From contig JAJEPU010000009.1 of NCBI GenBank assembly GCA_020686985.1, forward strand, positions 1-64,000: 64,000 nucleotides of DNA. The letters are read 5' to 3'. The position numbers and the translations under genes are program-made. Positions 12,492-27,397 of this stretch are shown here, one piece after another. Within the stretch, counting starts at the first letter, position 1. Every line of letters starts with the position of its first letter. This DNA is from Brotaphodocola catenula. GTDB taxonomy: Bacteria; Bacillota; Clostridia; Lachnospirales; Lachnospiraceae. The notes under the pieces are model-generated. The model ran no database searches. It was not told the origin of the DNA and saw only the letters and a list, made by a program, of their open reading frames with translations.

Positions 12492-13712
12492 TTATTCGGT
12501 TTCAAATATCTGTTTATTTACTGTGCTACAAAATTCTTTCCATCCCACTTCAAAATCTTTTACCGTTTTGCACCTCGTACAACTATAAAAAAATTTCTTT
12601 GTTTTGCTATTAATTAACAATTTCATTGGCATTCCACACTTTGGGCATAAAACATCTGGCTGTTCTGATGACCAATAGTTTCCAGGATACTGATTTACTG
12701 CTAAGACAATCGGCAAAACCAACTTTGCTCCTGCTTGATACATTACTTTTGCGCATTCTTTTATGGTCGCACCAGTTGTAACAACGTCATCTAAAATAAT
12801 AACTGTTTTTCCATCTAATCTCCCATCATAAGCAAATACACCCGAAATATTTTCCTGTCTATCCGCTGAAGATCTCCCTTTTTGTTTTGGATATTCCCTT
12901 ATACATCGAAATTGATTTTCAAGATTCTTTATATTACAATCGTTTTCAATCTGATCCAAAATCATATGAAAACGATTCTTCTCGCCTAAATGTGGTGGAA
13001 CCGAACACACTCCATATACGTCTGTATGTTTCATGATTCCATGTATTGCACCCTCATATAACTTCAAAAAAGTATCATTATATACTCCAAATGCCTTACT
13101 TGAAGGATTCTTATTTAAAAAAACAGCAGACGAATACAGATGTTTCTGGCTCATATAATGCGTATACGAATAGTATCTCCCTAACACACGCATTCGTAAT
13201 TCTGGCTGTTTTTCTAACATTACCGCAACCATAAGACGATTGCGATCACCTTTTCCCGAAACAATACTTTCACCAACATATCCCCCTATTCCTAACTTTA
13301 AGTGATTTTTAAAATACAGGAAATCAGGGCACAAAATATCTGGCGATGTACTAATATCCTCATAACCCACATGATTCGTAATCCAAATCGTTCCACTGCA
13401 AAAAGTTAATGCACGTCTCAGAAATAAAATATTACAGGAAACATACGCTAATTCTGTTGTTTGAACATTCAATGCTTTTAAAGCATACATATGTAAAACT
13501 GGTGTCGGTGCCCATTTTGCCAAATACTCTTTCATTCCCAAAATCGTTTTTAAACCAAAACGTTCTTTTAATTTTTTCTGCGTTTCACTCACCGAAGTCA
13601 AAAACAAACAATTATAAGAAGAAATAATCTCATCCCACTCACAAATATTTATATTTTCAAAACTATCTACATCAATCACCAATGCTTTTAGTTCTGTTAT
13701 ACAGCGGTACAT
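12492..13712 (-). CDS. Phosphoribosyltransferase-domain protein (ShosT-like toxin candidate)
   Basis: A 406-aa protein. The clear element is a type-I phosphoribosyltransferase PRPP loop, VIILDDVVTTGATIKECA, near residues 308-325. It is preceded by about 300 residues without a domain I recognise. The C-terminus is a zinc-ribbon: CPKCGMPM and, 20 residues on, CTRCK. It starts three bases after the stop of a DprA-like gene, so the two are co-expressed. A PRTase protein paired with a DprA homologue is the composition of ShosTA, a described toxin-antitoxin phage-defence system with a PRTase toxin. By analogy this is the toxin partner, but the long N-terminus and zinc ribbon differ from a simple ComF or PRTase. 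A competence role (ComF-DprA) is less likely, since no com genes are near. Confidence 0.7.
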   Translation of the reverse strand: MYRCITELKALVIDVDSFENINICEWDEIISSYNCLFLTSVSETQKKLKERFGLKTILGMKEYLAKWAPTPVLHMYALKALNVQTTELAYVSCNILFLRRALTFCSGTIWITNHVGYEDISTSPDILCPDFLYFKNHLKLGIGGYVGESIVSGKGDRNRLMVAVMLEKQPELRMRVLGRYYSYTHYMSQKHLYSSAVFLNKNPSSKAFGVYNDTFLKLYEGAIHGIMKHTDVYGVCSVPPHLGEKNRFHMILDQIENDCNIKNLENQFRCIREYPKQKGRSSADRQENISGVFAYDGRLDGKTVIILDDVVTTGATIKECAKVMYQAGAKLVLPIVLAVNQYPGNYWSSEQPDVLCPKCGMPMKLLINSKTKKFFYSCTRCKTVKDFEVGWKEFCSTVNKQIFETE

Positions 13713-13715
13713 AAT

Positions 13716-14957
13716 TTATCCCTCGATTGTAATAGATTCCGACCAACTATTCCACGTTGTAGCATCTTCTTGCTCTGGTTGGGAATTCCAAAAATCATCC
13801 AGTATAAGTTGTTCTGCTTCCAAGTCAGCTTGAAATATATTGCTTTCTGCCAAGATTCTCAAGACATCCATAGGCGTTTTTACTGGAAGCGCCCCGCGTT
13901 CTACATACTTTGCTGGCCAACTTATTGTTTTCATTTTTAATGCCGATTCCGGAATCAGTACTTTTCTTCCCTGCTTTAATGCAAAATCTGCCTGTTTCAA
14001 CGCTCCCGACGTTTCTCCGGCTTCCATAATCACAGTTGCCAATGACAATCCGCTCATCGTTCCATTTCTCAACGGAAAAAACCAACGTTCCGTCATATTG
14101 GCTGGCGAAAATTGTGATACAACCAAGCCTTTTTCTTCTATCTGCTGTTGAACCCATCTATTTTCCGACGGATAATACTGATTTAAATTTGTTCCAATTA
14201 CTGCAATCGTATTATAATTAGATTTCAGCGCAGCAAGATGAGCATTCACATCGATTCCTTTTGCCAATCCAGAAACCACCGTAATGCCATTCTGCCCCAG
14301 CGATCTTGCTAACCGTATTGTATTTTCCTTTGAATTTTCAGAAGCCTGCCGCGATCCAACCAAAGCTACCGTTCTCGTTTCGTATAGCAACGATTTTTTT
14401 CCTCTTATATACAAAAATCTTGGTGCCTGTTCTGTTTTGGCAAGTAACGGCGGATAATCTCTGCTTCCTCGCTTTATAATTTCATCTGTCTCCCGTAGCG
14501 TAAAAAAAGCCATTTTTGCTTTTTCATATTCTTTTAAAAGTACTTTTCTGTCTACTGAAAAAAACTCTGCATATTCCTCTGCCATATTTTCCATATCCAT
14601 AGGAATATCTAACTGATGCGTCTTTCCAAAACTGTCAAACAAAGGTTCCAATTTGTGCTCTGTCATACAAAGTACATTCATTAGAGTTGCGAAATTTAAT
14701 GCCTCACATTTTGTTCCTGTATCAAAAACAAACATTCCGCTTCCTACCTTTCTTTCAACTTCAGAAAAAATCTTCAGTTCTTTTTTTCTTCGCTCCAATT
14801 CATCAATATGGAAAATCGTACCAGAGGCATTTTTTTTCAAAGGTTTAATCTTTCCTTCTTTCACAAGTTTATTCAGTCTCTGTACTGTAATTCCCAAAAA
14901 TTCGGCTGCCTCTTTAGAAAAAAACAATTGATCCGCTAAAACTTCTACTCCATTCAT
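13716..14957 (-). CDS. DprA-like protein with N-terminal HTH (ShosA-like antitoxin candidate)
   Basis: A 413-aa protein. Residues 8-55 form a MerR/excisionase-type helix-turn-helix (FFSKEAAEFLGITVQRLNKL). After a helical linker, residues about 150-370 carry the DprA/Smf Rossmann fold: DYPPLLAKTEQAPRFLYIRG, then VALVGSRQAS and SGLAKGIDVNAH. The GGLSVVVEA-like element is present as SGLSLATVIMEAG. Housekeeping DprA lacks this N-terminal HTH and usually ends in a winged helix, so this is probably not the competence DprA. It has its own promoter and is followed after three bases by a PRTase gene. In ShosTA the DprA-type protein is the antitoxin; the HTH would allow autoregulation (inference). Confidence 0.75.
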   Translation of the reverse strand: MNGVEVLADQLFFSKEAAEFLGITVQRLNKLVKEGKIKPLKKNASGTIFHIDELERRKKELKIFSEVERKVGSGMFVFDTGTKCEALNFATLMNVLCMTEHKLEPLFDSFGKTHQLDIPMDMENMAEEYAEFFSVDRKVLLKEYEKAKMAFFTLRETDEIIKRGSRDYPPLLAKTEQAPRFLYIRGKKSLLYETRTVALVGSRQASENSKENTIRLARSLGQNGITVVSGLAKGIDVNAHLAALKSNYNTIAVIGTNLNQYYPSENRWVQQQIEEKGLVVSQFSPANMTERWFFPLRNGTMSGLSLATVIMEAGETSGALKQADFALKQGRKVLIPESALKMKTISWPAKYVERGALPVKTPMDVLRILAESNIFQADLEAEQLILDDFWNSQPEQEDATTWNSWSESITIEG

Positions 14958-15214: not shown

Positions 15215-18200
15215 TTATGCTTTCACAGCCTTTACCCAACATAATAAAATACTTTTCCTCTTTTCTATTCCTTTAACCGGATCAAAATCAGTCTTTTCCT
15301 TTATTGAATAGCTCGTTATATAAGAAATTTCTTTCAAACGTTCAGCTAATCTTCTGTTTTCATCTGTATCTTCTAGTTCAACACTATGCTTTTTGCTCCT
15401 ATTACAGAAACCCATATATTGGGGCGACAATCCTTGAAAGCAGTCTCGAAAATCTGAAATCCCCAAAATAAAGCGGTACTTAATCATCAATTTATTTTTT
15501 TCTTCTTTCAATGGTAACTTTTCCCACGCAAGATAAAACAATGATTTACTAATATCCACGTTTATATTAAGCAGACATTGAGCAAGATCAGTAGACATAT
15601 AATCCTCACCAAAAGTTTCTAAAAGTATTCTTGCCATAGAAGAATCTAACCTCGGAGAACTAAACAATGCTTCCAACAATGTTTCACTCATAGAAATATT
15701 TTCTATTAGCTTTCTATATTCTTCTTGATTATATAAAATAAAATCTACACATAAACTAGGATATGTCATTTCTAACTCATCATACATATCAATATTAAAA
15801 GGAATATATTTTTTTCTAATCAATATCTGGATTTTCTTTTCGGTGATATTGTTCATTGGAATATCAAATGCTTTTAACTCTAATTTCTGTAATAACTTTT
15901 CTAACACAGCATTATCAATAGAGCTCGTAATAATCGCCTTTGTAAATTCCTCGCCTATACATTGATTATCTAAATACTCCAATTTTTGACTGCTTATTTC
16001 AAGGTATCGAATCAACTCTGCTGTAAGACCATATCTATCCCAATAGCATTTAATATTTTCCCACTTTACCTTCACTTTATTTTTTTCTAATAATTCATCC
16101 CAAAGTTTTTTCACTTGTTTATTTAATTCAACACCGAAACTTCCACAACATATTGAAATATCATCTAAGCAAAATTCCTCATGATTAATTATTTTCAAGC
16201 AAAGTTCTGAATCTTCAACGGACCGCTCTAACAAATCTATAACTTGCTCTTTAGACTCTTTGGTATTAGCTTTCGCCAATACTATTGCTTCCACATAATC
16301 CTTTAGATTTTCTTGTATATACTTAATCAACGGTGCATATCCCAATGCAGTAGCCACTGTATAATTCTGCGTATCTAATCCCGCAACCATAGACTCATTT
16401 ATAAATTCTACAATTCTACGGATCATCATGGAATTTAATTGATAATGTTGATCTTCAAAAATACATCTCAAAACTTTTTCTGAAACACCATCAATAGAAA
16501 TATTCGTAAATACAATCTCTAAGTTTTCGATTAAAACAATAACTTTTTCATCCGAAATATTCGATAATTGTTGCAATATATCTGGATTTTCTTCTACAAA
16601 ACGATTCACTTCACAATCACTGTTTAAAGCGATTAACTTCTCTATTTCCACATTATCAATGAGTAATCGTAGATAAAAAAGTTTCCTCTCATACGTCAAT
16701 GATACCTTTTCCGCAATATAACTCCACATATTTGACCATTTCATCGCCAATAGTCTAGTTAACTTTTCTTTATAATGCGTTTGCTCAATAAATTCATTTA
16801 TAAAATTCCAACATTCTTCTGTTTCATCTGATAATTGCGTAATTAACGCATCCCTCTTTTCAAGTTCTACCTCTTTAGACAATAACTCTTCCAAAAGAAT
16901 AAAATTTAAAACACTCTTTTGTTCAAACTCATATACCTGTAAATGCTGTATAACTCTATCAACTTTCGTCAAATTATAATTATACGGCATCCTCTCCATA
17001 TTTTTAATTGCTAATATGAAGTTCATATCTTCCCTTGTAATGCTTGTTCCCTTAAAATAATTGATATAATTCGCATATTTCTCGTCAATATATCCTCTAC
17101 GAAGCATAAATACAAGCACTTTATTTTCCCTAACTTTTTCAGATAATACATCACAAACGCCAAATTTTTCTATAAGTTTTTTCAGTGACCATCCAGAAAG
17201 TTCATGTACCTTTTTCTTCAATTCCTCAATTTCAGCTTTCATTGAAACAACTGTTTTTTCTTGTACAATTTTCAGATTTATTATTCTTTCATAATACAGT
17301 TTAAATATTTTTTGGAAATCATCTATTGATATATCTGCTGTTCGACCATCCCATGTATAATAATAAATAACAACCTTTTTCAAACGTTCCAACTTTGATA
17401 AATCGAAAATGTCTTCCATTATTTTTTTTACATCATACTCCTTATAATAACTTTCATTTATTCTATAAGGAATTCCCTGCCAATTTACCATAGCACCAAA
17501 CATAGCTGTTTTAAGTTCATTGATTTCGTTTAAGCGATCGTCATTATAGTTTTCTAATCGATCTGTATTCTCATTAATTCTATCCTTCCATTCTGCGCAT
17601 TGTCTCACAATATAATTTTGTTTATCTATAAAAGCCTGTTTTACAATTCCTCTTTCCGTTTGAAGATTTGCAAAATCTCTTGGATACAAATTTTTAAAAA
17701 TAATCAATGCCATCATATTTTCATCAGATAGCTTGAGCTCTTGATCTATTAAAATAACCTTTTTATACAATACAAACTCATTATAGATATTCTGAAGGAT
17801 TCGCATATCCTCTACATATGGCGCTACATCTAATATAAATTCCTGAGAGATTTTATGTGTAATTTCTTTATCTCTTGCTTTTTCAATTTTTTGTAAAAAT
17901 ATCTCTCCTGAATTTGTTGAATTTATAATCGGAATTACTGGGACAATAAAATCAAAAAATTTTGTTCGATCTGTATCCGTAAATATATCATCTCTAATAG
18001 CATATACAAAGACAATACGATCTTTTATCCCATCATAATTATTTAATAACGTATTCAGTTCTCGAAGATGGATAAAAATTGAGGGATTTTCTAGACGATC
18101 AAGATCTTCAAAAAACACAATGCGATACTTGGTTTCTTCAAAAAAATACACAATCTCATCCATGTTTTTATTAAAAACTGTTTCTGTGGTGGTTTCCGTA

Positions 18201-18883
18201 TTTTTTACTACTGTATCCGCAGGTAACTTAACTTCATCTACTTTAAACCGAAATAACACAGCGCGATATATTCTAGCGATAACCGCACACATGGCAATAC
18301 AAAACACAATAAAAATCCTAATTGAAATATGTTTTTCTAGTTTAATTTTTTCTCCTGCTTCTTGTATTTTTTCGATTATTGATTGCAAAACATCCGGATA
18401 AAATATCCAACAAAGTACTATTAAAATACTTACTCCTAAAATTAAATATGCCCAGATCTTCTTCCAATTAATCTTATGTAGTTTTCGATACCTACTTTGT
18501 GGTATCTTTTTATAATTAACTTTATAAAATAATTGTTTTAAAATTCCTAATTCAATTTCATCCCTATCCAATAAAATTCGTTTGGGATTTCCCTCCTCAT
18601 CTGTTTGATTTTCAATAAACGTTGCCATTGAAATACGAAGAGTTTTCCATTTTATAATTTTATGTTTTTTTAAATATGTTTCAATAATACTACTCTTACC
18701 TGATCCATAAGGACCTGCTAAGGCAATATTTTTTACATTTTTTTGTTTTATCGCCCAATGTAATGTATTTAGATATTCCTCTCCATTTTCGATATTATCA
18801 ATAGGAGCAAGATTCGTAAATTCTGTATCTTTTTTCAATATTTTATTTATCAGTTTTCTAATTTTTTCCCAAAATTTTATCGT
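15215..18883 (-). CDS. YobI/KAP-like membrane P-loop NTPase
   Basis: Large NTPase of about 1,222 aa. Counting from the downstream TTG (18838), the Walker A is AGPYGSGKSS (41-50), and two membrane helices lie near 128-150 and 172-193. The Walker B region reads YRIVFFEDLDRLE near 238-250. The C-terminal 900 residues are helical, with no motif I recognise. This matches the YobI-type ATPase family (KAP-like, membrane-inserted NTPase), which is often found in defence islands. The canonical start is missing. A perfect AAGGAGG (18891-18897) stands seven bases before an in-frame ACG at 18883-18881, and 15 protein-like codons (IKFWEKIRKLINKI) lead to the TTG. The true start may be ACG or a mutated ATG; TTG at 18838 has no ribosome site. 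It follows the restriction operon by about 100 bases. Confidence 0.75.
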   Translation of the reverse strand, partial: TIKFWEKIRKLINKILKKDTEFTNLAPIDNIENGEEYLNTLHWAIKQKNVKNIALAGPYGSGKSSIIETYLKKHKIIKWKTLRISMATFIENQTDEEGNPKRILLDRDEIELGILKQLFYKVNYKKIPQSRYRKLHKINWKKIWAYLILGVSILIVLCWIFYPDVLQSIIEKIQEAGEKIKLEKHISIRIFIVFCIAMCAVIARIYRAVLFRFKVDEVKLPADTVVKNTETTTETVFNKNMDEIVYFFEETKYRIVFFEDLDRLENPSIFIHLRELNTLLNNYDGIKDRIVFVYAIRDDIFTDTDRTKFFDFIVPVIPIINSTNSGEIFLQKIEKARDKEITHKISQEFILDVAPYVEDMRILQNIYNEFVLYKKVILIDQELKLSDENMMALIIFKNLYPRDFANLQTERGIVKQAFIDKQNYIVRQCAEWKDRINENTDRLENYNDDRLNEINELKTAMFGAMVNWQGIPYRINESYYKEYDVKKIMEDIFDLSKLERLKKVVIYYYTWDGRTADISIDDFQKIFKLYYERIINLKIVQEKTVVSMKAEIEELKKKVHELSGWSLKKLIEKFGVCDVLSEKVRENKVLVFMLRRGYIDEKYANYINYFKGTSITREDMNFILAIKNMERMPYNYNLTKVDRVIQHLQVYEFEQKSVLNFILLEELLSKEVELEKRDALITQLSDETEECWNFINEFIEQTHYKEKLTRLLAMKWSNMWSYIAEKVSLTYERKLFYLRLLIDNVEIEKLIALNSDCEVNRFVEENPDILQQLSNISDEKVIVLIENLEIVFTNISIDGVSEKVLRCIFEDQHYQLNSMMIRRIVEFINESMVAGLDTQNYTVATALGYAPLIKYIQENLKDYVEAIVLAKANTKESKEQVIDLLERSVEDSELCLKIINHEEFCLDDISICCGSFGVELNKQVKKLWDELLEKNKVKVKWENIKCYWDRYGLTAELIRYLEISSQKLEYLDNQCIGEEFTKAIITSSIDNAVLEKLLQKLELKAFDIPMNNITEKKIQILIRKKYIPFNIDMYDELEMTYPSLCVDFILYNQEEYRKLIENISMSETLLEALFSSPRLDSSMARILLETFGEDYMSTDLAQCLLNINVDISKSLFYLAWEKLPLKEEKNKLMIKYRFILGISDFRDCFQGLSPQYMGFCNRSKKHSVELEDTDENRRLAERLKEISYITSYSIKEKTDFDPVKGIEKRKSILLCWVKAVKA

Positions 18884-18982: not shown

Positions 18983-21900
18983 TTAGTCTGCAAGTTCCGG
19001 AAATACGTCCATCAATTTATCTTTGAGTTTTCCTTCTTTTGCATATTTTAACGTATCACATAATTTTATGTTATGTTTTTTAATTTCTATTTCGTCACCA
19101 AATCCCAATATATAAGACAAACAAATCCGATATATGATTTCTGTTGGTGCACAGCCGAATACCTGCTTAGAAAAAATGTGGTTTAATCTTTCAGCACGAT
19201 CGGGATAAAGCTGTTGCATACGTTCACTTTGATATAAGCGAGTCACAATCTCTGTGATATACATTCCGGATTTCATATATAAATCCGCAAATGTTTTATC
19301 AGGATCATCAAAACATCCCGGATTCTCCTGTTCCAATCGATCTACCATATCCTTTACCACCCATTTCGGAGTAAAGATCTGATTGGTTTTCTGCGGTGGT
19401 ATATAATCAAAAATATCTTCCAGATTTTTCTCATCAAAGTAATCGGCAAGTTGATGCTTCTTGTTCAAAAACTCTTTTACTGAATCATCAAACACAACCG
19501 GGTCAAACAGATGTCCTTTAAAGAATTCTTCTTTTCCTGTTTCCGGATTTGGATAATTCCCTCCATCACGCAAAAATCGGAAATCCGCCAGAGAAATACT
19601 GGTTACTTCTTTAAATACCTCATCTGGAACAATCTGATCAAAATTCGCTAACGTTGTATTTTCATCACCGTATGCCATCAAGAAAGAAGGAATTGTTCTG
19701 GAAAATCCACGCAAATGATCCTTAATTCCATCTTCGATTGTGCGTTTTTTCTCCTCCCGCTTTTCCGTCTCCACTGCATTTACAACCGTTTCTTTCGCAG
19801 TTTGAACAAAGCTCTCAACGGAATCTGTAATTGTTTGTTTTAGTGTCTCAACAGCTTGCTGTTTCTTTTCTGCTATTTCCTGATTAATTTGTTGACGTTC
19901 TTCATAAGTCTCTGCGGACTCTACACGAGCTTGGCGCTCTGCTTCCAGAATATTCTGTTGTATTTTAAAATCCCCATAGGCTTTATGTACAACTGTATCT
20001 GTTTCTGTATTTATTTTTTTCTCAAGTTGTTTCTGAGATGACTTTGAGAGATCTTTTCCATATTGCTCTTTTGCTTTGTCCAACACAGGATTCGTAATGT
20101 TTTGCCGGAAAGTATCCTTTAATCGATCAAGAATTTCATCTTCATCTTTTTTACTTGCAGTTTCTCTCAACACTACATTGTCGAAAATATTCTCTACTTC
20201 TTCTGTCACATCATCCACACCAAATATTTTATCTCCAAATATTTCCGCAGTCTGACCAATCACATAATCCTTATCCAACTGAATATTTCCATCTTCATCC
20301 ATCGTTGCATGATCCACAACACTCGAATCAACACCAAATGGAGTTTTGGGTTCTTTTACAGCTTCCATATTCTGAAGAATATCAATAACAGCTTGTGGTG
20401 CATGAAAAATGTTCGTAATATTCTGGAAAAGGAAATCCGACATGAATCCTCTTCGTACTACTTCCTGTGACTTTAACTTACGCGGAATAGAAAGTACCTT
20501 TTCCGCATCCAGCTCTACCATTTCTCCATTTTCATCTTCACCGATAACCGGGAAGAAATTCAACAATTCACGAACATGCTCTTTTCTGGTATCAGAATCG
20601 CCTTTACCACCTGCGGTATCCTCTGCTAAATCATTTGCAATCTCTTCATAGATAATAAGAGTTCTAGCCGGGTCAAAGTCAAAGATATAAGCATTTTCTT
20701 TTCGGTAATGTTCACTACCATTTGAGAATAAACATGGATTTTGAGCACGAAACGCCGCCTGCATATAGAGTGCCGGACTCTTCATTGAAGACAACATCAA
20801 AACAGCAGTCCATTCTGGAATGGTTACTCCCGTAGTCAACTGTCCAACAGAAAGTGTAATCGTTTTATCGAATTTTTTAATGGCAGTCCGCACCTTATCA
20901 TACGCCTTTGCAGTCTGCTCATCTTCTGAAAGTTTTCCATCTCCCGCTGCCAAAACAATTTCATAATTTTCAAATACTGGATGTGTCTGAAGTTTCTTTG
21001 CAAGAGCTTTTGCACTATCCACACGATTCAAAAGCCATAATGTATGCTTTAATTCTTTGCGGAGTTCTGGCGTAGAAAATGGGAATTTTTCATTTTTGGT
21101 CATTGCATTCAGAAAATCGTCAACTGCTGACTCATGAATAAATTTTCCAGTCGCATTTGTTGCAAAAAACTCATTAAGATCAAATGCATATTCCTCTGTC
21201 TCACCATTGATTTCAATTCCCTGAGACAGCTGATTTTTTACAATTTCAGACATCTGATATGTCAACATATTCAACTGAGGTAAATTTCCATATGGATTTT
21301 CTTCACCAATTTTTTCTTCATATTGACGTTTTGCTCTCTGCTCATCCGCATACGTCCAGTTAAAAATTGCTTGCTCCGGGAATTTATCATTTGCCAATGC
21401 TTTAAATGGCGTTCCTGATAAATGAAGTGTATACTTTCTTTTTATTCTATCGAAAGCAACATCCGTCTTGTATGTATCAACGCCTTCATGCGCCTCATCA
21501 ATAACAAGAATATCCCAATCTACATAAGCAATTTCTTTTAACTTCTTGTACTCTCCACCAAAATAAAGAGAACCTTTTAAATCCTGAAGAGAAACGAATT
21601 CAATGCAACCACAGAATTCATCTACTGCAACATGTGCCCCATAAGATCTATACTTTTCCCGTGAGATCACATAGGTACGTCCCTGAATTCCATCTACATT
21701 GCTGACAAAATGATATCCAGACTGAATTCCTAGAAACTTTTCATAATCTTCATACCACGAATTTGCAATCGCTGGACGATTTGTAACAATAAGAATGTTT
21801 ACCGCATTCAGACGTTTGCAAAGATCATATGTGGCAAGGGTTTTTCCGAAACGTGGCTTCGCATTCCATAAAAACTGTCCGTTTTCATGCTCACTAAAAT

Positions 21901-22327
21901 AATGCAAAGCCTTATCTACTGCGCAATTCTGTTCATCGCGTAATACATAGGGAGCAACATCACGAACAGCTGTAATTTCTCCGCGATTTTCACGAAAATC
22001 ACGATACATCTCTTTTGATCGCGGAGATGTAATATGAAACCATTCTGTTTTTGGTTTCTGTTCTACACCATTTTTTCGCATATATGCATGCAAATCTTTA
22101 TCACTGAAAACGTCGCCTGAACCATCATCATAGACGGCATTTCCTTTCCATTCAAGATTGTATTTCACATCTGCGGTATGTGTCTGCTGTTTTATTCGCT
22201 TCTCAATATCCTGTTCTGTATAGCCAATCTTGATCCACCCATTATGACTAGCAATTTCCGGAATCGTATAGGCATAAATCATCGGAACAACCTTTTGAGC
22301 GGTATTGATGTTGATTTTTGGAACCAT
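18983..22327 (-). CDS. GIY-YIG nuclease-SF2 helicase-methyltransferase half (restriction subunit)
   Basis: 1,114-aa restriction protein, domains in order. Residues 14-110 form a T5orf172/GIY-YIG-like nuclease: YAYT at 18-21, IKIGYT at 32-37, Arg44 and late Glu95 (KTEWFHI). Residues 130-560 form a superfamily-2 motor with Walker A NAKPRFGKTL at 155-164 and DEAH at 277-280. Its distal motifs are LTTGVTIPEW and YMQAAFRAQNP. A charged, helical coupler region of about 200 residues follows. Residues about 985-1114 resemble the N-terminal part of a gamma-class adenine methyltransferase: FTPKWVVKDMVD, then ADLYMKSGMYITEIV in the motif I position. The protein stops before any NPPY motif. That motif sits in a separate upstream gene of the same operon. 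The order nuclease-helicase-coupler-methylase is that of Type ISP enzymes such as LlaGI, with GIY-YIG replacing Mrr and the chain cut before motif IV. Start overlaps the previous stop (TAATG). Confidence 0.8.
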   Translation of the reverse strand: MVPKININTAQKVVPMIYAYTIPEIASHNGWIKIGYTEQDIEKRIKQQTHTADVKYNLEWKGNAVYDDGSGDVFSDKDLHAYMRKNGVEQKPKTEWFHITSPRSKEMYRDFRENRGEITAVRDVAPYVLRDEQNCAVDKALHYFSEHENGQFLWNAKPRFGKTLATYDLCKRLNAVNILIVTNRPAIANSWYEDYEKFLGIQSGYHFVSNVDGIQGRTYVISREKYRSYGAHVAVDEFCGCIEFVSLQDLKGSLYFGGEYKKLKEIAYVDWDILVIDEAHEGVDTYKTDVAFDRIKRKYTLHLSGTPFKALANDKFPEQAIFNWTYADEQRAKRQYEEKIGEENPYGNLPQLNMLTYQMSEIVKNQLSQGIEINGETEEYAFDLNEFFATNATGKFIHESAVDDFLNAMTKNEKFPFSTPELRKELKHTLWLLNRVDSAKALAKKLQTHPVFENYEIVLAAGDGKLSEDEQTAKAYDKVRTAIKKFDKTITLSVGQLTTGVTIPEWTAVLMLSSMKSPALYMQAAFRAQNPCLFSNGSEHYRKENAYIFDFDPARTLIIYEEIANDLAEDTAGGKGDSDTRKEHVRELLNFFPVIGEDENGEMVELDAEKVLSIPRKLKSQEVVRRGFMSDFLFQNITNIFHAPQAVIDILQNMEAVKEPKTPFGVDSSVVDHATMDEDGNIQLDKDYVIGQTAEIFGDKIFGVDDVTEEVENIFDNVVLRETASKKDEDEILDRLKDTFRQNITNPVLDKAKEQYGKDLSKSSQKQLEKKINTETDTVVHKAYGDFKIQQNILEAERQARVESAETYEERQQINQEIAEKKQQAVETLKQTITDSVESFVQTAKETVVNAVETEKREEKKRTIEDGIKDHLRGFSRTIPSFLMAYGDENTTLANFDQIVPDEVFKEVTSISLADFRFLRDGGNYPNPETGKEEFFKGHLFDPVVFDDSVKEFLNKKHQLADYFDEKNLEDIFDYIPPQKTNQIFTPKWVVKDMVDRLEQENPGCFDDPDKTFADLYMKSGMYITEIVTRLYQSERMQQLYPDRAERLNHIFSKQVFGCAPTEIIYRICLSYILGFGDEIEIKKHNIKLCDTLKYAKEGKLKDKLMDVFPELAD

Positions 22328-22971
22328 TACCGCATCGCCTCCTTTTCCTTCTCACTACGTAAATCTGTAAGTCTTTTCCCCTTATATGCAAACCAGTGCG
22401 GTCCTTGTACAGGCTTTGATACCCCACTGAGTACTTTCACAAGTGTTGACATAGAATATTTCTGTCCACAATAAAAAACATGTCCATCATCAGCAACTTT
22501 CACTTTAACAGACGGATTTTTAACATACGTCAATTCTTCACCTTCTGAAATACCAACCATAGAAAATTTAAATCGTTTCGCTTTTCCAGTAGGTATCTTT
22601 TCAATCTCTGTACTAGATTTTTCAACAATTCCTGACGTAGCATCATCAAAAATCTTTTCTTTATCTTCAGATTTTGGATAAACAACCTTCCCTTCAAATG
22701 ATGAGAGCAACTGAACAACAATATTCACATCAACAGCAAATAACTCTGTACCAACCACATTACTTTTATTAAAAATTGTGTCTAAAAGATTTTCCTTTTC
22801 ATCATAGTCTTCGACTTCAATAGCAAAACGACGTTTTAAGCCTGTAACATTCGCATATCCATTATGTTCCAACGTATACATTCTTGACTCAAAATTATTC
22901 GTTCCTGTTTTCCCTATCTTTACAAGCCCATTTACTATTGTTGTCATCACATAAAGGATTCCTCTAGCCAT
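22327..22971 (-). CDS. GIY-YIG nuclease with C-terminal RAMA domain
   Basis: A 214-aa protein. Residues 3-90 look like a GIY-YIG nuclease of the T5orf172 type: ILYVMTT, LVKIGKTG, Arg29 in ESRM, and Glu in GTELFAVD. Residues about 130-205 match the RAMA domain pattern: GISEGEELTYVKNPSVKVKV, then HVFYCGQKYSMSTLVKVLSG, with VQGPHWFAYKGKRLTDLR at the end. RAMA is a predicted binder of modified bases or partner methylases in restriction systems. Both ends are coupled by TAATG one-base overlaps to the methyltransferase piece upstream and the helicase downstream, so it belongs to the same complex or pathway. It could be a second nuclease or a modification-sensing guard; neither is shown. Confidence 0.75.
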   Translation of the reverse strand: MARGILYVMTTIVNGLVKIGKTGTNNFESRMYTLEHNGYANVTGLKRRFAIEVEDYDEKENLLDTIFNKSNVVGTELFAVDVNIVVQLLSSFEGKVVYPKSEDKEKIFDDATSGIVEKSSTEIEKIPTGKAKRFKFSMVGISEGEELTYVKNPSVKVKVADDGHVFYCGQKYSMSTLVKVLSGVSKPVQGPHWFAYKGKRLTDLRSEKEKEAMR

Positions 22972-24032
22972 TACGACATCTCCTTTACGTTTTCCTCGAT
23001 AAAAGTAATTTCTTCATTGCTAAAATTATATTTATGATAAAGTTGAAGATCTATTTCATGAATAGACTTCGACCAATCTATATCAGATAATGCAGAAAAA
23101 TCTTGGAGTGGGACATATTTCCATTTGTCTGGCGTTAAATCTTGTGTCGTCTTTAAAACCCCAAGCATTGCTCTACTCACTTTACATTTAATATATTTCA
23201 AACAGTTTTCTGCTTCTTCAATGCTATTAAATATGCCAATACTTAAAAAAGTTTCTGTGGATCCTGTTTTAGGTTCTGCAATAAGTGGCTGTGAAATAAC
23301 TTCTCCAAAACTCCCCGATCCATTAGCCTTTGGAAGAAAAATTTTAAATTTATCATAATTGACAACATCATTAATATACTTTCTTTTTATGTATCTATAA
23401 CTCCTTACATTCCCCGTTCTTCCAAGTATTCTAGCGTATTCATCACCATCTTTAGGCTCTTCTGAAAAAAACACTTGTGGTAAACGATCAAAAATGTTTG
23501 TCGACATATCATATGCATGTCCTTTACTAAGTTGTTCGATTGCATTCGGATAATCCTCATGTAACTTTGTAGTTAGCCTATATGCTGTTCGAGTAATAAC
23601 AATTTCACTTAAACTTATAAATGAATCTGCATTTTTTATTTTTTTCAATATACCATTCAGCACAGAATATTTTGTAAATACTTGAATTGCTCCAAAATTT
23701 TTTAAGTCATTATGATAGGTAATCGCAACACCTCCTTTAATATCAGTATTTGCAAATACTTTTGAGGCATCTTCTTCATAATGCATGACTTTAAAATATG
23801 GATCATTTAACATTTTTTCATTCCATGCTTTAGGTGTAGAACCCGCATTAAATAAAAATCTCGCTGGATGAATCAACTCAACACCAACAGCAACTTCTGC
23901 AACTGCATCCATAAATTTATTATATACTGGCGCTGCATAAGTTTTATTACCATCCGATGAAAATTCTTCTTGATAAGGCGGGTTCCCTATTGCAAAATCA
24001 AACAACTTCTTTTCCATTCTCTCACATCCCAT
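22971..24032 (-). CDS. Adenine methyltransferase C-half with NPPY and target-recognition region
   Basis: A 353-aa protein that begins almost directly with motif IV: FDFAIGNPPYQEEF, NPPY at residues 17-20. There is no room for the SAM-binding motif I. The rest looks like the Eco57I/TaqI-type tail of a gamma-class N6-adenine methylase: PARFLFNAGSTPKAWNEKML is motif VI-like, followed by a variable region suited to DNA recognition. It must pair with a SAM-binding partner. Candidates are the 311-aa gene upstream, which overlaps it by 11 bases, or the C-terminal 130 residues of the helicase subunit. An internal ATG (MEKKLFDF) five codons in is an alternative start. Confidence 0.78.
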   Translation of the reverse strand: MGCERMEKKLFDFAIGNPPYQEEFSSDGNKTYAAPVYNKFMDAVAEVAVGVELIHPARFLFNAGSTPKAWNEKMLNDPYFKVMHYEEDASKVFANTDIKGGVAITYHNDLKNFGAIQVFTKYSVLNGILKKIKNADSFISLSEIVITRTAYRLTTKLHEDYPNAIEQLSKGHAYDMSTNIFDRLPQVFFSEEPKDGDEYARILGRTGNVRSYRYIKRKYINDVVNYDKFKIFLPKANGSGSFGEVISQPLIAEPKTGSTETFLSIGIFNSIEEAENCLKYIKCKVSRAMLGVLKTTQDLTPDKWKYVPLQDFSALSDIDWSKSIHEIDLQLYHKYNFSNEEITFIEENVKEMS

Positions 24033-24957
24033 TTTTTAAATTTTTATATACAATAGTTTCATTAGAACGCCAGTTTCTAATTTTACACGGAAGAGCAACA
24101 TCCTCCTGCTTAGGCTCTTCAAACATATCAAAAATTGACATCTGGTGATATTCCTCATGTGGTTTTCCTAGCGGAACTGTATCTTTCAAACCATCCATTT
24201 GCCAGACATTCCACGCAATAACATTAGCAAAGCGTTTCAAGGTATTTTCGTCTGGTTCTTTTTTCATCCGTTCTCGAAAATATTCTGAAAATGTCATAAT
24301 CATATTGATCCTTGCAATCAAAAGATTATCTCCTTGATATTCATATCCATAACAGCTCTGAAAGGCTCGCAAAGTCCATGTTAACCACTCATCATCATGG
24401 ACAGCATTTTCATTTACGACTCGTAATTTTCTATCTAAAATACCAATCCGACGAGCAAGTGGTAAAATCATTTCACCCGTAGTAACATCGTATCTGGATA
24501 CCAAATACGGTGCTTCTCCACAAGTAATTTCCAATCGTCTTGAATCAACATAGGACTTCCAAGTGTTTTTTTCATCAAACGGAATCTTTTCCTGATTTAC
24601 AATCCAAGTATGTTCTTCTTCATTTTCAATATTAAATATATCTTTTTTCCCAAACCATTGCTCTTCAACATAATTATTCATTTTGTTACACAGCCAAACA
24701 GGAGTAAACACTTCTGCCTTTTTGCGAGTTCGTGCCTGTTGCTCATCTATATTTTTCTCTGTTCTGGATTGCAAATCAATCGAATAAAGACCTTTTACCG
24801 CCATAATATCGATATGATCTTTATCCTGAAATCCATCTCCCCTTTCAGAATAGGCATCTGTTGCCCAAATAATGTTTTTCTTGGTTGTTTTATCCTGTAA
24901 AAGAATTTCTAGTGTTGTTTTTACCGGATAAGCATTTATATCTATTAAATTATCCAT
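24022..24957 (-). CDS. Restriction-system methyltransferase N-half ('subunit M')
   Basis: A 311-aa first gene of the operon. It carries motif X-like AEVFTPVWLCNKMNN (81-95) and a motif I-like LEITCGEAPYLVSRYD (142-157) with a following TTGE. This is the pattern of proteins annotated as restriction endonuclease subunit M in gut Firmicutes and Bacteroidetes. It has no NPPY motif; that is in the next gene. The end overlaps the next start by 11 bases. GAGG lies six bases before the ATG, and a good promoter lies 50-80 bases upstream. I infer that it supplies S-adenosylmethionine binding for a two-chain adenine methylase protecting host DNA from the helicase-nuclease. Confidence 0.75.
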   Translation of the reverse strand: MDNLIDINAYPVKTTLEILLQDKTTKKNIIWATDAYSERGDGFQDKDHIDIMAVKGLYSIDLQSRTEKNIDEQQARTRKKAEVFTPVWLCNKMNNYVEEQWFGKKDIFNIENEEEHTWIVNQEKIPFDEKNTWKSYVDSRRLEITCGEAPYLVSRYDVTTGEMILPLARRIGILDRKLRVVNENAVHDDEWLTWTLRAFQSCYGYEYQGDNLLIARINMIMTFSEYFRERMKKEPDENTLKRFANVIAWNVWQMDGLKDTVPLGKPHEEYHQMSIFDMFEEPKQEDVALPCKIRNWRSNETIVYKNLKNGM

Positions 24958-25007: not shown

Positions 25008-25036
25008 ATTATACATGATGGGTCACATATCCTCAA
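25008..25036 (-). promoter_or_regulatory. Promoter of the restriction operon
   Basis: Minus strand: TTGAGG (25031-25036), a 17-base spacer, then consensus TATAAT (25008-25013). It is placed between the end of recD2 and the first methyltransferase gene, so the operon is independent of recD2 transcription. Confidence 0.75.
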
Positions 25037-25064: not shown

Positions 25065-27341
25065 TTAAAAGTTCCAGTTTTCCTCAAACTCTCCAAACGG
25101 AAACTCCCCCATTGGAAACGTATTCTCCCCACTCTCCCGCAACCGCATCTTCAAATGCGTATTGCGTTTTGTGACGGTCACATTTCGCACTGCGTATGCC
25201 AGCGCCTTCTTTGTGCCGACAATCACGAGCACCTTCTTCGCGCGGGTAATTCCGGTGTAGATCAGATTGCGCTGGAGCATCACAAAATGGCTCATCAGCA
25301 CCGGCATGACCACAATCGGATATTCCGAGCCCTGCGCCTTATGGATTGTCGTCGCGTAGGCATGCACGATCTCATCCAGTTCCGTCGATTCATACGAGAC
25401 TATCCGTCCATCAAAATCCACACTGAGCACTCGATTCTGCATATCCACGGACACAACGAGCCCAATATCCCCGTTGAAGACTTCTTTCTCATAATTGTTG
25501 CGGATCTGCATCACCTTGTCATTAATGCGGTAGGCATATCCGCTTCGGAAAAGTTGGTCTCCCTGCGGATTTAAGGCTTCCTGAAGCATCAGATTTAATT
25601 TTCCTGCGCCGACAACACCACGTTGCATCGGCGTGAGCACCTGAATCTGCGACGGCGCAACCGCATAATATCTTGGCAGTTTTGTCTTGACGAGCTTCAC
25701 GATCTCTTCCGCTGCCTCCTCCGGCTCTTCCTTCGATGTGAAGAAGAAATCCGTGTCCGCTCCATTTGAGATGTCAGGCATCTGTCCCTGATTGATCCGG
25801 TGCGCATTCGTGATGATTCGACTGCTGAGTGCCTGCCGGAAAATCCTCGTCAGACGAATCACCGGAACGGTCCCGGAATCCATGATGTCACGCAGGACAT
25901 TTCCCGCTCCGACAGACGGAAGCTGGTCAATATCTCCGACGAGAATCAAACGCATTCCAAGCGGAATCGCTTTAAGCAGTGAGTTCATCAGCACAATGTC
26001 GATCATCGAGCATTCATCGACAATCAGCACATCGCCCTCAAGCGGATTCTCCTCGTTTTTCTGGTAACCTTCCGGCGGTTTGCACTCCAAAAGTCGGTGA
26101 ATCGTCTTCGCCTCAAGTCCTGTCGCCTCGGTCATTCGCTTTGCCGCCCGCCCCGTCGGCGCTGCAAGCAGAATCTTTAATCCAAACGACTGAAATGCCG
26201 TGATGATTCCCTGCGTTGTCGTCGTCTTTCCGGTTCCCGGTCCACCCGTGAGCACCATGACTTTTGAGATAGCCGACTGGCGAATCGCCTCGGTCTGCAC
26301 CTCATCGTACTCCATATGGACGCGCTCCTGAATCTTTTTGACATCGACGGAAAGATCTTGGTTTCCTGTCTTCTGCCTTGCCTGCATCAAAGATGTCCAA
26401 AGACGATCCTGAGCCGGTGTCTGAGTCAACCGCCGAAGTCTTGATGCGACACCCGTCTCCGCATAATAAAATGGTGGAAGATAGATGGAATCCCCCTCTT
26501 CCTCTCTCCACGCTTCACAGATCAAATCCTTATTCTCCCGCATCTTCTCAATCGCCCCGGCAATGCACATCTCATCTGCTTCGAGAAGCTCCACTGCCTT
26601 CTTGATCAACTGTTCCCGTTCCGCATAGACATGCCCTTCATCTGCGAGTGCGCTGAGTGTATACATGATTCCGCTCCGGATTCGCGCAAAATCATCTTTT
26701 TCGAATCCCAGTTTCTGTGCAATCCCATCTGCGGTCCGAAAACCGATTCCCCAGATGTCATCCGCAAGGCGAAACGGATTTTCCTTCACGATCTGGATGC
26801 TCTCATTGCCGTACTGACGATAGATTTTCCCCGCAAATGCCGTGCTGACCCCGTGATCCTGAAGAAACAGCATGATATTCTTGATCTCCTTCTGCTTCTC
26901 CCAGCTCTCATGAATCATCTGGATTCGCTTCTTGCCGATCCCCTCCACTTCCAGCAGGCGCTTTTCATCGCTCTCAATCACCTCGATCGTCTCTGTCCCG
27001 AACTTCTGCACAATCCTCTTTGCAAACTTGGGGCCGACTCCCTTGATCAGACCAGAACCGAGATATTTCTCAATCCCGAAAACGGTCGCCGGCATCGTCT
27101 CCTCCCAGCTCTCCGCCAGAAACTGTCGCCCGTACTTGCTGTCAATCTTCCAGTTTCCGTCGACTAAAAGAACCGAGCCGACGTTGACATCGAGAAGATT
27201 TCCGACGACAGTCACAAGATCGTTATAATTCTTGACCGCGCACTTTAAGACGGTATAACCGTTTTCCGGATTCTGATAGGTAATCCTCTCCACGACACCA
27301 CGAATCCGCATCGTTCTTGATCTCTCTCCATTCTCTCCCAT
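25065..27341 (-). CDS. recD2: RecD2-type ATP-dependent DNA helicase
   Basis: A 5'-3' superfamily-1B helicase in DNA repair, cytoplasmic. The N-terminal half has an OB-like segment and helix-hairpin-helix repeats (GVGPKFAKRIV, EGIGKKRIQMI, GIGFRTADGIAQ). The motor starts at Walker A LTGGPGTGKTTT near residue 370, with DECSM as motif II, QLPSVGAGNVLRD as motif III and YATTIHKAQGSEYP near the C-terminus. Stand-alone RecD2 without RecBC is usual in Firmicutes; about 758 aa is normal. The start at 27341 has GAGGGG eight bases upstream, and MRIRGVV twelve codons or so later is an alternative. It borders the defence island on its right and is a core gene. Confidence 0.93.
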   Translation of the reverse strand: MGENGERSRTMRIRGVVERITYQNPENGYTVLKCAVKNYNDLVTVVGNLLDVNVGSVLLVDGNWKIDSKYGRQFLAESWEETMPATVFGIEKYLGSGLIKGVGPKFAKRIVQKFGTETIEVIESDEKRLLEVEGIGKKRIQMIHESWEKQKEIKNIMLFLQDHGVSTAFAGKIYRQYGNESIQIVKENPFRLADDIWGIGFRTADGIAQKLGFEKDDFARIRSGIMYTLSALADEGHVYAEREQLIKKAVELLEADEMCIAGAIEKMRENKDLICEAWREEEGDSIYLPPFYYAETGVASRLRRLTQTPAQDRLWTSLMQARQKTGNQDLSVDVKKIQERVHMEYDEVQTEAIRQSAISKVMVLTGGPGTGKTTTTQGIITAFQSFGLKILLAAPTGRAAKRMTEATGLEAKTIHRLLECKPPEGYQKNEENPLEGDVLIVDECSMIDIVLMNSLLKAIPLGMRLILVGDIDQLPSVGAGNVLRDIMDSGTVPVIRLTRIFRQALSSRIITNAHRINQGQMPDISNGADTDFFFTSKEEPEEAAEEIVKLVKTKLPRYYAVAPSQIQVLTPMQRGVVGAGKLNLMLQEALNPQGDQLFRSGYAYRINDKVMQIRNNYEKEVFNGDIGLVVSVDMQNRVLSVDFDGRIVSYESTELDEIVHAYATTIHKAQGSEYPIVVMPVLMSHFVMLQRNLIYTGITRAKKVLVIVGTKKALAYAVRNVTVTKRNTHLKMRLRESGENTFPMGEFPFGEFEENWNF

Positions 27342-27397
27342 AAGCAAAACCCCTCATTTATCTGCCATTTACTTGCAGTTTACTTGCAATTTCCTGT

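Follow-up and report, generated by a model that had tools for sequence, protein, structure and literature searches.

An operon in which one DNA methyltransferase appears to be divided among several genes, with its N-terminal half present twice and its C-terminal half once, raises the question of which N-terminal half serves modification and what the other is for. The operon lies on the minus strand of a 64,000-nucleotide stretch of Brotaphodocola catenula DNA (Lachnospiraceae; GenBank assembly GCA_020686985.1, contig JAJEPU010000009.1, positions 1 to 64,000), referred to here as the window, and all operon coordinates given below are of that strand. Its genes are ordered as follows: a 311-amino-acid protein with the S-adenosylmethionine (SAM) motifs of a methyltransferase (Msub), a 353-amino-acid protein with the catalytic NPPY motif and a target-recognition domain (NPPY/TRD), a 214-amino-acid predicted nuclease (GIY2), and a 1,114-amino-acid nuclease-helicase protein (the motor) that ends in a second methyltransferase N-half homologue (MH). 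The open reading frames lie where the initial annotation had placed them. In the reading favoured here, to which a probability of roughly 0.55 can be attached, the operon encodes an ATP-dependent restriction-modification system in which Msub and NPPY/TRD form the modification enzyme, NPPY/TRD is the exchangeable specificity component, and MH is a pseudo-half that docks the motor onto Msub.

The first gene of the operon (24022..24957) encodes Msub, which from its motifs is predicted to be the SAM-binding N-half of a gamma-class adenine methyltransferase, with motifs X, I and II and a III-like motif; the names and roles of motifs X, I, II, III and IV follow general usage for methyltransferases throughout. 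The window's protein has motif X, motif I (CGEAPY) and motif II (YGYEYQGD) in intact form. In motif I (LEITCGEAPY, 24505..24534) the C, G, E and P are each present in 70 of 70 full-length homologues, as are the Y, G, E, G and D of motif II (24328..24351), in which the ribose-binding acid is kept, so that C-G-E-x-P and Y-G-x-E-x-Q-G-D are invariant among the Msub proteins reaching 80% coverage, a threshold that left out the short or split proteins of lactic-acid-bacterial, actinobacterial and MH-NPPY-type loci. A 13-row alignment shows that the shorter Msub proteins of other branches retain G-E in motif I as well as Y-G-x-E...D; those of L024/L025 read, by eye, EPACGNG/EPAIGHG and YGFD/YGID. 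Small Msub proteins match the hidden Markov models (HMMs) of both MH and Msub, and the two N-halves are therefore homologous, which agrees with the suggestion of the initial annotation that the 311-amino-acid protein offers a second N-half.

The second gene (22971..24032) encodes what its sequence suggests to be the methyltransferase C-half, from motif IV onward, followed by a target-recognition tail. The catalytic NPPY motif (23973..23984) is highly conserved, with N in 114/114, P in 114/114, P in 114/115 and Y in 113/114 rows; the alignment has 119 rows, some of which stop short of the motif, and 113-115 reach it. A profile search against adenine methylase families, as had been proposed, gave a Pfam Eco57I match for this protein (5.8e-12) and no Pfam family for Msub, which was matched by the PADLOC model MTase_II (PDLC03390, 1e-101). 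PADLOC also assigns NPPY/TRD to MTase_II (1.3e-30) and REase_MTase_IIG (1.6e-29), the latter match covering the C-terminal part of the Type IIG model. The placement of the NPPY motif and recognition tail in a separate upstream gene is thus borne out, and as part of the favoured reading this gene would be an exchangeable specificity cassette. At one related locus (L047:1946-5210) a second NPPY cassette faces the other way and carries a recognition tail unlike the first, and a 39-nucleotide inverted repeat (79%) lies over the NPPY start; specificity switching by inversion is possible there, a single locus being too few to conclude phase variation.

The motor gene (18983..22327; Pfam ResIII 3.8e-11, T5orf172 5.5e-5) begins with a GIY-YIG domain (amino acids 17-109, 22001..22279; T5orf172, PF10544, over the Pfam cut-off), in which the Tyr, two Gly, Lys and Glu are present in 126/126 homologues, the second Tyr in 123, the Arg in 125 and the His in 124. 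It continues with a superfamily 2 (SF2) helicase/translocase (amino acids 126-640, 20408..21952), recognised by ResIII and by helicase motifs that are invariant in seven aligned sequences, and with a coupler (amino acids 641-975, 19403..20407), defined by a family HMM built in this analysis and above the cut-off of no Pfam family in a scan of the window proteins. The last domain is MH (amino acids 976-1109, 19001..19402). The order nuclease, helicase, coupler and methyltransferase N-half is as first described, and so is the use of GIY-YIG in place of Mrr, no Mrr family being among the Pfam matches. The protein had also been said to stop after motif I. In fact motif X (IFTP) and motif I (DLYMKSG) are followed in it by a strand resembling motif II (FGCAPTE) and by an Asp like that of motif III, and its end falls immediately ahead of motif IV, the point at which the 353-amino-acid protein starts.

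The motif state of MH differs from that of Msub. The usual Gly of motif I is replaced by Lys (KSG in the window) in 112 of 113 rows, the exception being L027, and the position of the motif II acid is acidic in 0/113 and Ala in 108; motif X, the Asp and Gly of motif I and the motif III-like Asp are kept. These rows come from 115 at a 75% coverage threshold, below which most MH domains of the type in which MH is fused to NPPY fell (8 were included), after removal of L152 and L153, stand-alone halves with G-K-G and the acid. Both of the latter (L152:5923-6381, L153:5923-6381) encode a 152-amino-acid methyltransferase N-half that reads DPCSGKG, is acidic at the motif II position and was caught by the MH HMM, and they are putative SAM-type halves in viral contigs. 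A stand-alone MH-like frame of 136 amino acids is also present in a related genome (G088:C5:515134-515520). The initial annotation had pictured two SAM-binding halves competing for one NPPY half; this is not supported in that form, as Msub alone keeps the SAM motifs and MH, as described below, co-diverges with Msub and not with NPPY (more weakly in another branch).

Full-length relatives are found in plasmids, genomes and viral contigs, and the architecture is therefore more than a chance arrangement. Searches with the motor by tblastn gave 83 plasmid records (33 from Enterococcus, 9 from Lactococcus and others), 31 of which cover at least 80% of the motor, and 5 phage records, 1 of them at coverage of at least 80%. 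The window's own family, sampled in 200 genomes, gave motor matches in 22, many over the helicase alone; near-whole-length relatives occur in 7 of the 200 (own genome included, one in two frames) and Msub matches in 11 (own included). A scan of genome contigs yielded 479 stretches with a motor relative; the 80 most similar to the motor were kept, and HMMs for the parts, built in this analysis, were run on the fetched loci up to L203. The order GIY-YIG, helicase, coupler, MH is present in 80/80 genome loci, by construction because these were chosen by similarity to the motor. Msub and NPPY are both present in 64 of the 80 loci, as separate frames in 37 and as a single frame in 27 (25 intact, L051 broken, L052 cut by the contig end); in the remaining 16 one or both partners are absent from the stretch, most of these at a contig end. 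The conserved gene order and several fusion combinations uphold the proposal of a nuclease-motor-methyltransferase operon with a split methyltransferase, and its products very probably form one restriction-modification complex.

Natural fusions of Msub to NPPY allow the fold of the combined protein to be predicted. The model of the fusion at L031 (42 aligned rows) has a mean predicted local distance difference test (pLDDT) score of 87.2 and a predicted template modelling (pTM) score of 0.81, and is a confidently predicted adenine methyltransferase fold. A Foldseek search of the PDB with this model matched BrxX/PglX, BpuSI, DrdV, LlaBIII, M.BseCI and M.TaqI; for these the E values span 1e-9 to 2e-6 and the query TM-scores are modest, at 0.27-0.46. 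LlaGI and MmeI are also among the best matches, and E 0.001 is reached by 30 chains. Searches of the PDB by sequence (P0001, P0003 and P0004; profiles A1, A5 and A6) returned no credible relative, the best profile match being 8c45 at E 0.058. The features of a gamma-class N6-adenine methyltransferase of the Eco57I clan, namely motifs X, I, II and IV (NPPY) with a target-recognition domain, are split over Msub and NPPY/TRD and come together in one fold in the natural-fusion model.

The role of MH is addressed by the divergence of the parts, which was compared by rank Mantel tests. Genome and viral contigs supplied 58 complete loci, reduced to 52 by removal of near-identical motors. Msub and MH are correlated at 0.573 (0/2000), and at 0.518 (0/2000) given helicase and coupler, while the Msub-helicase correlation of 0.332 (0/2000) falls to 0.087 (325/2000) given MH. 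Within the motor protein itself, the helicase-coupler and helicase-MH values, which serve as yardsticks, are 0.603 and 0.469. When the motor is cut into 15 overlapping segments, none longer than 134 residues, MH is the best correlate of Msub, the next reaching 0.421. The NPPY core gave 0.266 (13/2000) with Msub, 0.065 (416/2000) with MH and 0.009 (924/2000) with the helicase, and among the 31 loci with separate Msub and NPPY genes Msub-MH is 0.674 and MH-NPPY core 0.009. MH thus diverges in step with Msub and without a link to NPPY, which is itself unlinked to the helicase. Because the operon has Msub at one end and MH at the other, with the unlinked NPPY gene between them, co-inheritance of neighbours is a poor explanation, and the pattern suggests contact between MH and Msub.

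In the favoured reading, Msub, binding SAM, and NPPY/TRD would together make up a single gamma-class N6-adenine methyltransferase, able to recognise and methylate its target, adenine being the presumed target base, with the NPPY tail reading the target. The 1,114-amino-acid protein would be the restriction motor, with its N-terminal GIY-YIG nuclease mounted on an SF2 translocase. MH, in origin a duplicate of the methyltransferase N-half, would no longer bind SAM and would instead dock the motor onto Msub; if it does so, NPPY/TRD gives specificity to both activities. Unmodified sites would start the motor and be followed by cleavage by the GIY-YIG domain, and methylated sites would not trigger it.

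Several results pull in the other direction. Without the clade of L091, L097, L102 and L197 the Msub-MH correlation drops to 0.385, little higher than those of other segments along the motor (0.336, 0.324 and 0.31). In the type with MH fused to NPPY (21 loci in the Mantel tests, 16 after removal of near-identical motors) Msub is correlated more strongly with the helicase (0.838) than with MH (0.755), and Msub-MH given helicase is 0.39 (95/5000). The Foldseek matches of the L031 model also have high root-mean-square deviations, 7-16 A for those named above. NPPY is joined to MH in two other branches, in which the two would be the natural pair. Helicase and NPPY form one chain in eight loci (seven Firmicutes plasmids and one viral contig), with MH detected between them in six: in plasmids L018-L021 and L026 motor, MH and NPPY are a single chain of 1,417-1,466 amino acids with Msub separate, and viral contig L189 has helicase-coupler-MH-NPPY, while L022 and L023 have a more divergent middle that was missed by the MH HMM (K-T-G by eye). 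MH and NPPY are fused without the helicase in 19 loci (Variovorax, Mycolicibacterium and 17 viral contigs), the one-chain arrangement being seen in L024, L025, L109-L127 and L129; in this type Msub is followed by an MH-NPPY protein of about 460-535 amino acids and then by a helicase without MH. Together with the Msub-NPPY fusions, these arrangements show the NPPY half joined now to one N-half and now to the other, with both N-halves kept.

A wider evolutionary reading takes these arrangements as those of a three-piece methyltransferase family, in which the N-half was duplicated, Msub stayed catalytic, MH lost SAM binding and became a docking or switching half, and NPPY/TRD moves between partners and is exchanged between loci. 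This is tentative, and is held at somewhat below even odds; in its boldest form, NPPY would swap between Msub and MH and thereby switch between modification and restriction, a possibility weighed separately below.

The assembly put forward in the initial annotation, in which MH completes the Rossmann fold with NPPY to give a split counterpart of the single-chain nuclease-motor-methylase enzymes and Msub is an accessory half, is considered unlikely. It would account for the end of MH just before motif IV and for the fusions just described, and MH and the NPPY core do co-diverge in the fused type (0.414, 95/5000). Against it stand the Lys in motif I and the missing motif II acid of MH, the retention of Msub with invariant SAM motifs, and the absence of MH-NPPY co-divergence in the type to which the window belongs; even where the two are fused, the correlation given Msub is 0.248 (494/5000). 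The MH half is also poorly predicted in the MH-NPPY fusion at L110 (19 aligned rows; pLDDT 72.2, pTM 0.71), where block means are 56-88 across residues 21-90, the part with motifs X and I, and most of residues 91-179 score below 50; because the alignments differ in depth, 42 against 19 rows, the confidence of the L031 and L110 models is no fair contest between the two pairings, and this too tempers the favoured reading. Improbable as well is a half-swap switch, in which NPPY would have Msub as its partner for methylation and MH for restriction, the alternating N-halves setting the decision between modification and restriction. The keeping of two homologous N-halves with one C-half, the fusion of NPPY to one or the other depending on the branch, and the motif residues that MH retains are in accord with such a switch, but MH-NPPY co-divergence is absent in the window's type. 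Both are kept as rivals because MH-NPPY fusions exist. That Msub and NPPY/TRD are an independent methylase merely neighbouring a modification-dependent or other GIY-YIG helicase effector is very improbable. The pair does look like a complete methylase, its pieces are labelled by PADLOC as generic Type II methyltransferases, and the NPPY part diverges without a link to the helicase; but the pair accompanies the motor in 64 of the 80 loci rather than standing alone, several fusions join the parts, and Msub-MH co-divergence spans an operon whose middle gene is unlinked. Of the outcome that the initial annotation had named as refuting its proposal, a stand-alone methylase formed by the 311/353 pair, half is thus observed.

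Comparison with known systems places the operon outside the Type ISP enzymes to which it had been likened. Type ISP proteins have the order nuclease, SF2 motor, coupler, adenine methyltransferase and recognition domain, an order seen in the genuine Type ISP protein L210 and in the fused relatives of the window system, and the Msub-NPPY model matches the structures of LlaBIII (4xqk) and LlaGI (5ffj). The window system differs in having GIY-YIG rather than Mrr, a split methyltransferase with an extra N-half, and no Type_ISP_C domain. As a candidate identity, Type ISP was rejected: the genes of the window are separate, whereas a single polypeptide is expected and only fused plasmid relatives show the order in one chain, and where an Mrr/PD-(D/E)XK nuclease domain is expected the N-terminus is a T5orf172 GIY-YIG domain, with no Mrr family among the Pfam matches. 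Type ISP enzymes are also characterised by ATP-driven unidirectional translocation and collision cleavage; on this point the sequence shows conserved helicase motifs. Type_ISP_C (PF18135) was found in none of the window proteins or eight relatives scanned and not in G000; across genomes it occurs in 0/148 of the class and 5/348 of the phylum, and the model matches in 3/14 control genomes. Similarity to L210 is confined to the helicase, with 29.6 bits by BLASTP and, by hhalign with profile A1 (7 rows), 70 helicase columns at probability 69.9, a comparison in which distant homology outside the helicase may be missed because the template is a single sequence. Two further proteins, L211 and L212, have no helicase by inspection and were excluded from this comparison.

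Other systems share individual features. The nearest solved folds to the Msub-NPPY model are those of PglX/BrxX of bacteriophage exclusion (BREX) systems (9ewz, 1.0e-9; 8c45, 8.8e-9), which are not split; no BREX family and no HsdS (Type I) family was among the Pfam and PADLOC matches of the seven window proteins scanned. Type IIG/IIL enzymes (BpuSI, DrdV, MmeI) and M.TaqI/M.BseCI share the methyltransferase and recognition-domain fold, and in the case of Type IIG the PADLOC match of NPPY/TRD, but the window's methyltransferase is in pieces, with two N-halves and an ATP motor protein alongside. In METTL3/METTL14 a catalytic methyltransferase is likewise paired with a degenerate homologue; there the partners are whole domains, the target is RNA, and motor and nuclease are absent. 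The Type III enzyme EcoP15I (Mod2Res1) has two Mod subunits from one gene. In that enzyme two methyltransferase copies are reported to share labour for one motor (PMC4490356), whereas in the window system one N-half copy is degenerate and is carried on the motor. Among the literature matches listed, in which few subscription journals and preprints are covered, no title or abstract describes the family.

The remaining gene of the operon encodes GIY2 (22327..22971), a predicted stand-alone GIY-YIG nuclease that matches PF10544 (T5orf172) over the Pfam cut-off (1.7e-4) and the PADLOC candidate PDC-S57 (4.9e-66 over residues 1-130, 1.8e-34 over 3-210). Its C-terminal 90 residues, which have no Pfam match over the cut-off, presumably resemble small domains found beside GIY-YIG and modified-DNA enzymes. 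GIY2 lies between the NPPY and motor genes in the window and in 2 of the 80 genome loci (L067, L077); L091 and L105 have relatives of its C-terminal part upstream of the Msub gene. Other loci hold different, unrelated genes directly upstream of NPPY. In L033-L035 a nucleotidyltransferase/HEPN-like (MNT/HEPN-like) pair, and in L104 an AlbA_2-like gene, lies inside the operon between Msub and NPPY, while in L042 and L048 the gene next to NPPY (UvrD-like and ATPase-like) is one inside which the contig ends; all are named by inspection. GIY2 therefore looks like one of several embedded accessories, and is probably optional.

The gene junctions are as first noted, with TAATG at 22971 and 22327 and an 11-nucleotide overlap of the Msub and NPPY/TRD genes at 24032/24022. 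An internal ATG near 24017, close to the starts of relatives, is an alternative start for NPPY/TRD, and its use would make the overlap unnecessary. A promoter-like TTGAGG-17-TATAAT sequence (25008..25036, minus strand) lies upstream of Msub, identified by its match to the consensus; with 13 sites of this type where shuffles would give 25.3, it carries no statistical weight. The motor gene is directly followed by a gene for a 1,207-amino-acid YobI-like P-loop ATPase (15215-18838, minus strand; Pfam YobI-ATPase 3.6e-118, PADLOC Tmn 4.3e-79). At 12492-14957 on the same strand lie a DprA-like gene with a helix-turn-helix (PADLOC ShosA 3.4e-68) and, after it, a phosphoribosyltransferase gene (PsyrT 3.5e-13, ShosT 3.7e-9), predicted from these matches to be a ShosTA/PsyrTA-like pair. 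Lying beside a RecD2-like helicase gene (25065-27347, named by inspection), the entire stretch has the look of a defence island.

The pieces of this system are already known to defence-library profiles, as the PADLOC matches attest, and in the records and libraries consulted they bear labels that have nothing to do with one another: Type II methylase, Eco57I domain, GIY-YIG nuclease and DEAD/DEAH helicase. If the favoured reading is true, they would together constitute an unrecognised and widespread ATP-dependent restriction family, in which a modification enzyme and a DNA motor are joined via a dead half-domain. Specificity, residing in the NPPY half and its tail, would be exchangeable with the motor and the SAM-binding half untouched, and the family would offer a testable bacterial case of half-domain duplication followed by pseudo-enzyme docking.

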